From Panacagrimonas perspica (lineage in GTDB: Bacteria; Pseudomonadota; Gammaproteobacteria; Nevskiales; Nevskiaceae), in assembly GCF_004364935.1 (NCBI RefSeq), contig NZ_SOBT01000012.1, positions 186,001 to 250,000 on the forward strand: 64,000 bases of DNA, in the 5' to 3' direction. Under the pieces are notes generated by a model that did no database searches, was not told where the DNA came from, and worked only from the letters and a program-made list of their open reading frames with translations. Below are positions 34,038 through 40,359 of this stretch, one piece after another. The position numbers were made by a program, and so were the translations under genes. Positions within the stretch are counted from its first letter, which is position 1; every line of letters starts with the position of its first letter.

Positions 34038-34206
34038 GGGGAGAGCCTGTACGGGGACTGGCTAGTGACCGACGTATGGTAACGCGGTTCCATCGGGCGA
34101 CCCGCGAATCGAGCGCATTTCGGCGCGTTGCGGTTGAGGCAAGGCGGCTGGATCGCCGAAGATACCGATGTGCGGCGACCGCTCCGGGCGCCGCGTCAGG
34201 ATAGCG

Positions 34207-35469
34207 ATGGCCTTCATCACCTTGGGTCTCAGCCATCACAGCGCGCCTGTCGAGGCGCGTGAGCGACTGGCTTTCACGGATGCCGAACTGCCGGCCGCAC
34301 TGTCGCGCCTGCGCGCGATGACCGGTGTCGACGAAGCCGCGATCCTGTCCACCTGCAACCGCACCGAGATTCTCGTGGTGTCGGAGCCCGAACTGGCGCC
34401 CGTCCTGATCGAATGGTGGCGGCGCGAGCTGAACGCCCCGGCCGGGCTGATCGAGCAGTTCGTCTACACCCACCGCGACCAGGGCGCCGTGCTGCACAGC
34501 CTGCGCGTGGCCTCGGGCCTCGATTCGATGGTCGTCGGCGAGCCGCAGATCCTGGGCCAGATGAAGGGCAGCTTCGCGCTGGCCACCGAGTCCCGCGCGC
34601 TGGGCCCGGTGCTGTCGCGCCTGTTCCAGCATGCGTTCGCGGTGGCCAAGGTCGTGCGCAGCCAGACCCAGGTCGGCGCGCATCCGGTGTCGGTGGCCTA
34701 CGCCGCAGTGCAGATGGCGCGGCAGATCTTTTCGGACCTCGAGCAGCAGACGGCGCTGCTGGTCGGCGCCGGCGACACCATCCAGCTCATCGCGCGCCAT
34801 CTGCGCGGGCAGGGCATCGGCCGCATCGTCGTGGCCAATCGCAGCCTCGAGCGGGCCGAGCGGCTCGCCCGCGAGGTGCAGGGTTACGCCATCGCGCTGT
34901 CCGACCTGAACGCCTACCTGGGCGACGCCGACCTCGTGATTTCCTCGACCGCGGCCCGCGAGCATGTGATCGGGCAGGCGGCGATGAAGCTGGCGCTGAA
35001 GAAGCGCCGCCGCAAGCCGGTCTTCATGATCGATCTCGCGGTGCCGCGCGACCTCGACCCGAAGATCGCCGATCTCGAGGACGTCTATCTCTACACGCTC
35101 GACGACCTGCGCAACGTCATCGCCGGCAACCTGCAGGCGCGCGCGGAAGCAGCCAAGCAGGCCGAAGTGCTGGTCGAGACCTACTCGCAGGATTTCACGC
35201 GCTGGCTCGAAAGCCGCGACGCCGGTCACGTGATCCGCCGCCTGCGCGAGCAGGCGCGAGCGCATCGCGACGACGTGATGGCCAAGGCGCGGCGCAAGCT
35301 GGCCTCCGGCGCCTCGGCGGAGGAAGTGCTCGGCTTCGTCGCCGACACGCTGAGCAACAAGCTGCTGCACGCACCCAGCCACCGGCTGCGCAGTGCGGAC
35401 AGCGTCGAGCAGTCGATGCTCGTCAATGCGGCGCGCAAGCTGTTCGACCTGCCGGACGACGAGGCGTGA
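34207..35469 (+). CDS. hemA: Glutamyl-tRNA reductase
   Basis: This 420-residue enzyme reduces Glu-tRNA to glutamate-1-semialdehyde, the first committed step of heme synthesis. The catalytic Cys50 is in ILSTCNRTEI, and GLDSMVVGEPQILGQ follows. An NADPH domain contains LVGAGDTIQLIARHL, then a C-terminal helical dimerisation domain. The start is the ATG at 34207, since MAFITLGLSHHSAPVEARER matches family N-termini. It is followed by prfA and prmC, the standard gammaproteobacterial order. Confidence 0.96.
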   Translation: MAFITLGLSHHSAPVEARERLAFTDAELPAALSRLRAMTGVDEAAILSTCNRTEILVVSEPELAPVLIEWWRRELNAPAGLIEQFVYTHRDQGAVLHSLRVASGLDSMVVGEPQILGQMKGSFALATESRALGPVLSRLFQHAFAVAKVVRSQTQVGAHPVSVAYAAVQMARQIFSDLEQQTALLVGAGDTIQLIARHLRGQGIGRIVVANRSLERAERLAREVQGYAIALSDLNAYLGDADLVISSTAAREHVIGQAAMKLALKKRRRKPVFMIDLAVPRDLDPKIADLEDVYLYTLDDLRNVIAGNLQARAEAAKQAEVLVETYSQDFTRWLESRDAGHVIRRLREQARAHRDDVMAKARRKLASGASAEEVLGFVADTLSNKLLHAPSHRLRSADSVEQSMLVNAARKLFDLPDDEA

Positions 35470-35575
35470 GCGGGCGCGGATTCCGAAGGCATTAGCTTTC
35501 GCGTAGCGTGCGCACCGCGCACGTTTTTCCCGGCCGTGCGTCCGCGCGCGCCACGTTCCTCCTTCGGCTTTGCCC

Positions 35576-36664
35576 ATGCTTCCCTCCCTGATCCAGAAAC
35601 TCGAACAGATGGTCGATCGTCGTCAGGAGATCGAGGGCGAGCTCGCCACGCCGCAGGTGTCGTCCAACGCCGACCTGTTCCGGCGGCTGTCGCAGGAATA
35701 CGCGCAGCTCGGTCCGCTGTCCGAAGGCTTCCAGGCCTGGCGTGCGGCGCAGATCGAGATCAGCGATCTCGAGCCGATGCTCGGCGATGCGGACGCCGAA
35801 GTGCGCGAGATCGCGCAGAGCGAGATCGAGCAGGCCGAAGCGCGCAAACAGAAGCTGGAGAAAGACCTCCAGGGATTCCTGGTTCCGCGCGACCCGCTCG
35901 ACGGCAACAACGTCTTCCTCGAAATCCGCGCCGGCACCGGCGGCGACGAGGCCGCGATCTTCGCCGGCGACCTGTTCCGCATGTACGGCAAATACGCCGA
36001 GGCGCGCGGTTGGCAGCTCGAGAAGCTCAGCGAGAGCGAGGGCGAGCACGGCGGCTTCAAGGAAGTGATCGCGCGCATCGTCGGCTTCGGCGTCTATTCG
36101 CAGCTCAAGTTCGAATCGGGCGCGCACCGCGTGCAGCGCGTGCCCGAGACCGAGGCGCAGGGACGCATCCACACCAGCGCCGCGACGGTCGCGATCCTGG
36201 CGGAGATCGCCGAGACCGAGGCCATCGACATCAACCCGGCCGATCTGAAGATCGACACCTACCGTTCTTCGGGCGCCGGCGGCCAGCACGTCAACAAGAC
36301 CGAGTCGGCGATCCGCATCACGCACTTGCCGAGCGGCGTCGTCGTCGAATGCCAGGAAGAGCGCAGCCAGCACAAGAACCGCGCGAAGGCGATGGCGCTG
36401 CTGGCCTCGCGCCTGCTCGACGCCGAGCGCAGCAAGCAGCAGGGCGACATGGCGGCGACGCGCAAGAAGCTGGTCGGCAGCGGCGATCGTTCCGAGCGCA
36501 TCCGCACCTACAACTTCCCGCAGGGCCGCGTCACCGACCATCGCATCAACCTGACGCTCTACCAGCTCGAGCGCGTGATCCAGGGCGACCTCGATCCGGT
36601 GATCCAGCCCTTGCTGGCCGAGTACCAGGCCGACCTGCTCGCGAGCCTCGCGGACGCGAACTAG
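35576..36664 (+). CDS. prfA: Peptide chain release factor 1
   Basis: The 362-residue factor reads UAA and UAG stop codons and triggers peptide release. The GGQ motif is in [13 protein letters not shown] near residue 235; its Gln is the substrate of PrmC, encoded next. [16 protein letters not shown] is the conserved segment after it. The start is the ATG at 35576 rather than a TTG two codons earlier. prmC starts 6 bases after the stop. Confidence 0.97.
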
Positions 36665-36670
36665 AAACCC

Positions 36671-37606
36671 ATGACGCCCGCCGAAGGATCCGCGCCGATT
36701 CCCGATTCGCAGCCGCGACCAGTGCCGCCGGTCGAGGGTCTCGCGCCGGGGAATATCGGGGCCTGGGTGCAGTGGGCCGTGCGCGCGCTCGAGACGGCGT
36801 CTTCCGATGCGCGCATCGATGCCGAAGAACTGATGGCGGCGCAGCTGGGCTTGCCGCGATCACGGTTGTCGATGCGATTCGAGGATTCGATATTGGCGGC
36901 CGATGCGCTGCGTTACGCGGGCTCGGTCGAGCGGCGTCGCGTCGGCGAGCCGGTGGCCTACATCACCGGACGACAGGGCTTCTGGAGCCTGGACCTCGCG
37001 GTGAATCCGGCGGTGCTGATTCCGCGCGCCGATACCGAGACGCTGGTCGAGTGGGCCTTGCAGCTCATGCGTGCGCGCGCGGGCGGAATCGCGGCAGGCG
37101 CGCTGCGGATCGCCGATCTCGGGACCGGCAGCGGCGCCATCGCGCTGGCGCTCGCGCAGGAGTTGCGCGCGAACGCGGCGATCGTCGCGACCGATCAATC
37201 GGAGGCGGCGCTGGCGGTGGCGCGGCAGAACGCGCAGGCCGCGGGCATCGAGCGCGTCGATTTCCGTTGCGGCAACTGGTTTTCGGCGTTTCGCGACGGC
37301 GAGCGCTTCGACCTGATCGTCTCCAACCCGCCCTACATCGCCGAGCGGGATGCTCATCTCGAAGCGCTGCGCTACGAGCCCCGAGTGGCGCTGACGTCGG
37401 GCGTCGACGGTCTCGACGCGATCCGGCATCTCGCCGGTGGCGCGTTCGCATATCTCGCGCCGCAGGCCTGGTTGCTGCTGGAGCACGGACACGATCAGGG
37501 CGCCGCGGTTCGCGGCCTGCTGGACGAGGCAGGCTTCGTCGACGTGTCGACGCGGCGCGACTTCGGCGGCAACGAGCGCATCAGCGCAGGACGCCTCGGA
37601 TCATGA
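36671..37606 (+). CDS. prmC: Release-factor glutamine methyltransferase PrmC
   Basis: The 311-residue enzyme methylates the GGQ glutamine of release factors. The catalytic NPPYI motif lies near 220 (VSNPPYIAERD), and the SAM loop is IADLGTGSGAIALALA. The N-terminus is extended by ~25 Pro-rich residues before the helical substrate-binding domain; the true start could be later. The stop overlaps the ATG of the next gene. Confidence 0.95.
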   Translation: MTPAEGSAPIPDSQPRPVPPVEGLAPGNIGAWVQWAVRALETASSDARIDAEELMAAQLGLPRSRLSMRFEDSILAADALRYAGSVERRRVGEPVAYITGRQGFWSLDLAVNPAVLIPRADTETLVEWALQLMRARAGGIAAGALRIADLGTGSGAIALALAQELRANAAIVATDQSEAALAVARQNAQAAGIERVDFRCGNWFSAFRDGERFDLIVSNPPYIAERDAHLEALRYEPRVALTSGVDGLDAIRHLAGGAFAYLAPQAWLLLEHGHDQGAAVRGLLDEAGFVDVSTRRDFGGNERISAGRLGS

Positions 37607-38346
37607 GCAGCCTTGCGCGCTACTCCCGGCAAGTCGTGCTGCGCGAGATCGGTGTCAACGGTCAGCAGGTGCTGCGCGACTCGTCGGCACTGATCATCGG
37701 ACTCGGTGGCCTCGGAACGCCGGCGGCGCTGTATCTGGCGGGCGCCGGACTCGGACGCCTCGTGCTCAGCGACTTCGATCGCGTCGCCGCGTCCAACCTG
37801 CATCGCCAGATCCTGTACCGGCAGGCGCAGGTCGGCGAGTCCAAGCTCGATGCTGCTCGCGAGCAGCTCGAGGCGCTGAATACCGACTGCAGGATCGAGT
37901 GTCGCAAAGGGCCGCTCGACGATGCCGCGCTGGTGGCCGCGGCGCGCGACGTCGATGTCGTGCTCGACTGCACCGACAACTTCGCCACGCGCTTCGCCAT
38001 CAACCGCGCCTGCGTCACGGCGCGCAAACCGCTGGTCTCGGGCGCCGCGATCCGCTTCGACGGGCAGCTCGCGGTCTTCGACACCGCGCGCGCCACCGCC
38101 TGCTACGCCTGTCTGTATCCGGTGGCCGGTGAATCGCAGGAAACCTGCGAGGAAGCCGGCATTCTTGGCCCGGTGGTCGGCACCGTCGGCACGCGGCAGG
38201 CGCTGGCCGTCCTCAAGCTGCTGCTGGGCCTGGGCGACGATCGTGGCGTGCTGTGGATCTGGGATGCATTGACCGATACCTCGCGCCGCCTGAGCATCCC
38301 GCGCGATCCTTCCTGTCCTGTCTGCGGAACCCTCCATGCACGCTGA
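37603..38346 (+). CDS. E1-like ThiF/MoeB/HesA-family adenylyltransferase
   Basis: The 247-residue protein resembles MoeB/ThiF, which adenylate the C-terminus of small ubiquitin-like sulfur carriers. RYSRQVVLREIG is the N-terminal hallmark and GLGGLGTPAALYLAGAG the nucleotide loop. The segment FDRVAASNLHRQILY is followed by a zinc-binding pair CYAC and CPVCG. Cys in ETCEEAGILGPVVGTVG aligns with the possible acceptor Cys. No rhodanese domain and no MoaD/ThiS partner gene is nearby. It overlaps prmC upstream and a JAMM-like gene downstream, so it is part of the hemA-prfA-prmC operon. Confidence 0.88.
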   Translation: MSSLARYSRQVVLREIGVNGQQVLRDSSALIIGLGGLGTPAALYLAGAGLGRLVLSDFDRVAASNLHRQILYRQAQVGESKLDAAREQLEALNTDCRIECRKGPLDDAALVAAARDVDVVLDCTDNFATRFAINRACVTARKPLVSGAAIRFDGQLAVFDTARATACYACLYPVAGESQETCEEAGILGPVVGTVGTRQALAVLKLLLGLGDDRGVLWIWDALTDTSRRLSIPRDPSCPVCGTLHAR

Positions 38347-38683
38347 TACCGACCTCGTCATGCCGCGCCGGCTCGCGATCCAGATCCTTCACGAGGCGCA
38401 GATCGCGCAGCCGGAGTCGATCGCCGGCGTCGTCGGCGCACGCGACGCGGAGCCCTCGAGTTTTTCGCAGGCCCAGGGCGTGGACTTCGCCGCGCGTGGG
38501 GAGACTTTATGGGCGCGGCTGTGGTCGAACCCCGCCGCGCCGGCCGTTCCGACGGCCGATCAGCTGTCCGGCGGCGGGCTGTACCTCGTCGTGTCGCTCA
38601 ACATCAAGGGCGTGCTGGAAATGCGCGCCTGGGAGTTGAGAGGCGGTGCGCCGTTCGAGCGCGTGATCAAGGTTCAGGACTGA
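38336..38683 (+). CDS. JAMM/Mov34-fold protein lacking zinc ligands
   Basis: The 115-residue product overlaps the ThiF-like gene by 11 bases. Its layout follows M67/JAMM peptidases: PRRLAIQILHEAQIAQP at the start, then a core ending GLYLVVSLNIKGVLEMRAWE. The expected zinc motif H-S-H-P-x6-S-x2-D reads W63-S-N65-P and then PTADQ. Both His, and probably Ser and Asp, are replaced, and the Glu at the family position is not in register. It therefore looks like a catalytically dead JAMM fold. Pairing of E1-like and JAMM genes is common in bacterial ubiquitin-like and sulfur-carrier systems. Family assignment is by pattern only. Confidence 0.55.
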   Translation: MHADTDLVMPRRLAIQILHEAQIAQPESIAGVVGARDAEPSSFSQAQGVDFAARGETLWARLWSNPAAPAVPTADQLSGGGLYLVVSLNIKGVLEMRAWELRGGAPFERVIKVQD

Positions 38684-38690
38684 AGCTGTG

Positions 38691-38799
38691 CTCCCCTCTC
38701 CCGCAGGGAGAGCGGCCGGGGGTGAGGGAGTGTCTGCCCGACGTTTCGAGACGCTCCCTCATCCGCCCCTTCGGGGCACCTTCTCCCCGTGGGAGAAGG
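38691..38799. repeat. Complex inverted repeat element between convergent operons
   Basis: About 109 bases contain three nested stem-loops. These are ctctccc/gggagag (38696-38712), tgagggag/ctccctca with the long middle (38722-38761), and ttctccc/gggagaa (38781-38797), plus gccccttcggggc in between. This type of ctctcccgcagggagag element is dispersed in many proteobacterial genomes. It separates the convergent JAMM-like gene and purH. Confidence 0.75.
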
Positions 38800-38812
38800 A
38801 AACGGCAACGTC

Positions 38813-40359
<1,547 letters not shown>

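Follow-up and report, generated by a model that had tools for sequence, protein, structure and literature searches.

The 115-residue protein encoded at the end of a prfA-prmC operon in Panacagrimonas perspica is, by its predicted fold and aligned sequence, a JAMM protein by descent that fails the M67 peptidase definition by its residues. It is moderately likely that a JAMM that once matured sulfur carriers is here no longer needed for that task and persists as a non-catalytic partner of the E1 enzyme encoded beside it, or of a carrier. The gene lies in the window, the 64,000-nucleotide stretch of DNA that was analysed (G000:C5:186001-250000, from a genome of 5.4 Mb). A preliminary description of this DNA had placed it among the Xanthomonadales; sequence searches correct this to an order of the Nevskiales type, with Panacagrimonas, Solimonas, Hydrocarboniphaga and Stenotrophobium as the closest relatives.

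The locus and its E1

Five genes run head to tail on the forward strand of the window. The first is an open reading frame at 34168..35469 (exact start approximate), which we take, from recognition of its sequence, to be hemA, the gene for glutamyl-tRNA reductase and the first of the operon. It is followed by prfA (release factor 1; 35570..36664), an open reading frame that as a phmmer query recovers conserved prfA-prmC neighbours in related loci, and by prmC (release factor methyltransferase; 36671..37606), a conserved neighbour upstream of the E1/JAMM pair. An intact E1-like MoeB/ThiF adenylyltransferase of 247 residues occupies 37603..38346, with its ATG at 37603, and the gene for the JAMM-fold pseudoenzyme of 115 residues occupies 38336..38683. 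The E1 gene begins inside prmC, overlapping its stop by 4 nt, and the overlap between the ThiF/MoeB-like gene and the 115-residue gene, already recognized in the preliminary description, amounts to 11 nt. A scan of 37400-38950 gave no site resembling a promoter or terminator, and translational coupling therefore fits the arrangement. Downstream of the JAMM gene, in the gap before a convergent purH-like ORF, positions 38690-38800 hold a G+C-rich inverted-repeat stretch (CTCTCCCGCAGGGAGAG then ...CTTCTCCCCGTGGGAGAAGG) that resembles a short repetitive palindromic element and has one copy in the window.

The E1 had been thought intact, and this is borne out both in the window and in its relatives. 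The window protein matches PF00899 (ThiF) at 1.2e-70 and passes the NCBIfam subfamily model NF004281 (280.2 bits, cut-off 266), but falls below the equivalog cut-offs for moeB (TIGR02355, 242.9 vs 376.55 bits) and thiF (TIGR02356, 233.5 vs 275.25). Its closest solved structures are E. coli MoeB and ThiF (1jw9, 1zud), and like these it is a normal member of its class, with all the expected motifs: the GxGGxG loop of the ThiF domain, N-L-x-R-Q, K, the zinc C-x2-C pairs and the acceptor Cys. Across the 57 genomes of the order in which the JAMM is degenerate, the E1 likewise retains its nucleotide loop, its acceptor Cys and the two zinc Cys pairs. The window E1 differs from other MoeB/ThiF E1s in being encoded together with prmC and a dead JAMM in one operon, and in being a single copy. 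Since it is the only PF00899 match in the genome at E<=1e-8, it presumably activates both ThiS and MoaD.

A JAMM fold that has lost its zinc site

Searched alone, the 115-residue protein gave no match in Pfam, NCBIfam or PDB sequence searches, and neither it nor three degenerate relatives matched Prok-JAB (PF14464) over the cut-off. Its homology to Prok-JAB was established via orthologues only. Those recovered by tblastn range from 77% down to ~30% identity, the distant ones carrying a complete E..HSHP...S..D; the intact Prok-JAB orthologues share 34-41% identity with the window protein (E 1e-15 to 1e-20), and intact relatives match PF14464 at 1.3e-20 (the orthologue in genome G001) and 4.5e-16. 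The JAMM fold that had been suspected is also found in the predicted structure. An AlphaFold model made with 85 homologues has a pLDDT of 89.5, and its best Foldseek matches are all JAMM/MPN proteins (top E 1.6e-6, range 1e-6 to 1e-4), including PfJAMM1-SAMP2 (PDB 5lda), Rpn11/Rpn8, AF2198 and CfBRCC36-CfKIAA0157. The model of the intact G001 orthologue has a pLDDT of 92.7 and matches DSY2949 at 4e-12 and PfJAMM1 at 3e-11. The two models have the fold in common, but helices 59-71 and 92-96 of the intact orthologue, the second of which follows HSHP, are absent from the window protein.

In the alignment of the 85 homologues, the H-S-H-P column of the window protein is occupied by W63-S64-N65-P66 (codons at 38522..38533, forward strand). 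This is the W-S-N-P of the preliminary description, which had also judged the later Ser and Asp to be replaced; T73 and Q76 stand in these columns, and S28 in that of the N-terminal Glu. Zinc ligands displaced to some other part of the chain would have spoken against a dead enzyme, but across the alignment the ligands are lost rather than moved. Each of the 57 aligned degenerate members of the order keeps between none and two of the five active-site residues, with Glu kept in no row, the first His in 2, the second His in 13, Ser in 6 and Asp in 22. With these residues gone, the 115-residue protein should not be annotated as an M67 peptidase; a JAMM fold without metal ligands, held under purifying selection, places it instead, by analogy, with the non-catalytic JAMMs of the MPN- type. 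Two members of the order (L033 and L035, in G067 and G066) are half-eroded, keeping HSH and Asp while Glu has become Arg and Ser has become Asp. Judged from these residues, they are possible zinc binders without activity, at an intermediate stage.

A quite different part of the protein has been kept. The motif [K/R]GVL[E/Q]xR hardly varies, whether members are intact or degenerate, and is absent from the ordinary M67 proteins of the order, such as those of G069-G072. In the window protein it reads K91-G-V-L-E-M-R97 (codons at 38606..38626, forward strand) and forms a hairpin between strands 82-88 and 94-102 of the AlphaFold model. Among the 57 degenerate rows, K/R is found in 56, G in 57, V in 56, L in 57, E/Q in 57 and R in 55; K and V are gone in G036 and the Arg in G037.

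Carrier ends and the state of the JAMM

JAMM proteases can free the C-terminal glycine of ubiquitin-like carriers, and it was therefore read off how the genes for ThiS and MoaD end. Deinococcus DRJAMM has been found by experiment to cleave MoaD-MoaE, freeing MoaD (PMC8832034). In the passages of Iyer et al. 2006 compared here (PMC1779556), release of fused ThiS/MoaD by JAB proteins is predicted, and JAB is stated to be absent from the thiamine and molybdenum cofactor operons. The preliminary description had remarked on the lack of a carrier protein nearby, which is true of the locus but not of the genome: ThiS and MoaD are both encoded away from the window, ending GGG-stop and GG-stop respectively, with neither tail nor fusion.

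Within the order, a carrier tail or fusion is present in 11/15 genomes with an intact JAMM vs 2/45 with a degenerate one (Fisher 2.7e-7; this and the other Fisher tests given here ignore shared ancestry). Among the former, G001 encodes ThiS-GGG-QYRDHE, and G003 has a ThiS-ThiG fusion together with MoaD-GG-SATPWPAGPAL. They also include Salinisphaera-like genomes, in which ThiS-ThiG and MoaD-MoaE are both fused and an intact JAMM lies away from the E1 (L123, L125, L127, L172, L174, L178, L180, L189 and L229, with further loci at L124, L126, L128, L212, L215, L216, L221, L222 and L227). In the genomes with a degenerate JAMM the carriers otherwise end GG(G)-stop. Two genomes depart from this pattern. 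G008 retains a MoaD tail, but its assembly carries 9% contamination and its two moaD copies part company one codon past Gly-Gly; G010 encodes a tail-less ThiS of its own and, in addition, a ThiS-ThiG fusion. On contig C1 of G008 (Hydrocarboniphaga effusa) the moaD region and the JAMM locus occur twice (L164, L170), ~203.5 kb apart, through either an assembly duplication or a real duplication with a breakpoint in moaD.

The same association is seen outside the order. In two class-wide samples, a tail or fusion occurs in 13/30 genomes with the JAMM vs 0/30 without it. Because one genome (G202) had been chosen for its known fusion and genomes free of fusions had supplied the JAMM-less sets, the four fusion genomes were also omitted, leaving 9/26 vs 0/30 (Fisher 4e-4). 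In a sample of 370 genomes, all six with an uninterrupted ThiS-ThiG frame, which represent four families, carry the JAMM, vs 102/370 overall (Fisher 4e-4). Since intact JAMMs are also found where no tail or fusion was detected (G002, G063, G011 and G068 in the order, and 17/30 of the class genomes with the JAMM), intact members may have other substrates as well. A link between MoaD and retention of the gene was considered and rejected, as G053 and G064 keep a dead JAMM with no detected MoaD.

The ancestral protein may thus be pictured as the JAMM metalloprotease of a prfA-prmC-(E1)-JAMM cluster, whose job would have been to cut ThiS and MoaD after Gly-Gly, removing their tails or freeing them from fusions to ThiG or MoaE, so that the E1 could adenylate them. 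Intact members would still cut these carriers. In the lineage of the window, with ThiS and MoaD already encoded with GG(G) ends, the protease activity would have become unneeded. Loss of the tails may in this way have released the constraint on the active site, after which the protein lost its zinc ligands together with the long helix adjoining them and the one that follows HSHP. Tail-less carriers as the probable reason for the loss, and the frequency with which the loss recurred, go beyond what the preliminary description had proposed.

Possible roles of the degenerate protein

On a tree of E1 and PrmC, the dead forms of G060-62 are sister to the intact form of G063 with full support, those of G064/65 and G036/37 make up separate dead clades, and the remaining dead members fall in family f1, with the intact G011 in their midst. 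This nesting of degenerate clades among intact ones implies at least four losses within the order. Six more degenerate members occur elsewhere in the class (G119, G158, G179, G245, G302 and G403), all with a recognizable KGVL-type motif and an E1 in the locus; the other members in the class are mostly intact (HSHP...S..D), in the order prfA-prmC-JAMM or prmC-E1-JAMM. A bolder proposal, which can be offered only tentatively, is that, in the Gammaproteobacteria, an E1-linked JAMM that matures ThiS and MoaD has become a non-catalytic E1 subunit on ten or more independent occasions, always once the carriers had become tail-less and always with the docking hairpin kept.

The degenerate protein could also be a slowly decaying relic, which persists as a short gene at the end of an essential operon after the carriers lost their tails. 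The central segments of the protein have been deleted, and G044 has dropped the gene while keeping prmC and the E1. In that genome (L228, on G044:C1, a single contig, 98% complete) no JAMM gene follows prfA-prmC-E1 and no MoaD was found above the cut-off; the partner is thus dispensable. The most eroded orthologues of the order, those of G037 and G036 (L105, L106), have a dN/dS of about 0.8 as a pair, which is near neutral, and may be genuine relics. As an explanation for the family, decay is nevertheless unlikely. In all other degenerate pairs dN/dS is 0.11-0.37, against 0.16-0.39 in intact pairs, so that these members are not pseudogenes, an interpretation that was rejected on this ground. 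In addition, an open-frame orthologue is found in 83/85 genomes of the order, and the G and L of the retained motif are invariant in 57 rows across separate losses.

If the protein is maintained for its contacts, the partner need not be the E1. In Methylococcales and in genus g2 the JAMM gene directly follows prmC with no E1 between, and this makes PrmC or another partner possible. An adaptor of PrmC/RF1, or of some other process of the prfA-prmC operon, to which the E1 is a passenger, is however rather improbable. An E1 adjoins 63/63 degenerate JAMMs with a readable upstream region (57 in the order and 6 outside) vs 21/45 intact KGVL-type JAMMs. Catalysis is thus seen to have been lost only in genes linked to an E1, forms without an E1 neighbour stay intact, and the state of the JAMM tracks the carrier tails and nothing known of PrmC. 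The adjacency may in part be inherited gene order, and no natural in-frame fusion of an E1 to a KGVL-type JAMM was seen in the loci read.

There is likewise little likelihood that the dead JAMM is a chaperone or shield for the carrier, guarding its GG or thiocarboxylate end through the ancestral groove independently of the E1. JAMM proteins do bind ubiquitin-like carriers, as in PfJAMM1-SAMP2 (PDB 5lda), and the dead form is kept where ThiS is the only carrier found, for example in G053 and G064, but the helices flanking the ancestral cleft have been lost and the conserved hairpin motif is distant in sequence from the catalytic segment. That the protein is still a peptidase or hydrolase, acting through other residues or an altered metal site, is very improbable despite its intact fold and the second His or Asp column kept in some members, since diverse, unrelated residues fill the columns of Glu, the first His and Ser without any position taking over, since the residues shared by at least 85% of degenerate rows include no new His/Cys/Asp/Glu set, and since the helix following HSHP has disappeared.

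A search for a second JAMM in the genome of the window gave a weak RadC-like match. Elsewhere in this genome (L231:1000-3297, on G000:C1) is a 765-residue protein with a Prok-E2_A domain, an E1-like stretch and an intact JAB/HSH (GTWHSHLVPSGPSEQD), which matches the PADLOC E1-E2 and JAB models and is possibly an anti-phage ubiquitin-like system. It may replace the dead JAMM, but its architecture is of the defence type.

Purifying selection, the invariant non-catalytic motif and E1 adjacency suggest that the protein acts without catalysis at the E1 or its carrier, and fit the adaptor or regulator of the E1 that the preliminary description had in mind, although binding to either partner is something we infer. 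What remains of the fold would be held by selection for such a partnership, the K/R-G-V-L-E/Q-x-R hairpin is the likely binding surface, and the partner may serve to position the carrier tail at the E1.

In its fold, and in its coupling to an E1 and ubiquitin-like sulfur carriers, the window protein resembles the Prok-JAB/MEROPS M67 proteins (PfJAMM1, HvJAMM1, DRJAMM), but it lacks their zinc and catalytic residues, is ~23 residues shorter than an intact relative with two helices fewer, and scores below detection with PF14464. In the way it works it would be most like the MPN- subunits of eukaryotes (Rpn8, Csn6, eIF3f/h, Abraxas/KIAA0157), structural partners with a JAMM fold and no working metal site. 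The resemblance is convergent, without homology at the subfamily level: MPN- subunits pair with a living MPN+ protein, whereas no other stand-alone JAMM of this type is encoded in the window genome, where an E1 is the neighbour. Among the E1-JAB neighbourhoods in the compared passages of Iyer et al. 2006 (PMC1779556), the E1 adjoins the JAB gene as in the window, but those passages hold no prfA-prmC-E1-JAB cluster with carriers elsewhere and no mention of PrmC/HemK. Our partial coverage of the literature gave no description of this cluster or of its bacterial dead JAMMs. Since the Prok-JAB profile does not detect the dead members, automated pipelines will probably label them hypothetical proteins.

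The family provides comparative evidence for the 2006 prediction that JAMM proteases mature the housekeeping carriers ThiS and MoaD, so far tested mainly in archaea and Deinococcus. It also forms a natural series, intact, half-eroded, dead and absent, in which a protease sheds catalysis while keeping its place beside the E1, and this makes a non-catalytic JAMM role testable in cultured, non-pathogenic bacteria. If the conversions did occur at least ten times, bacteria would possess a counterpart of the MPN- subunits, and the living JAMM would also have a second, non-proteolytic role at the E1.
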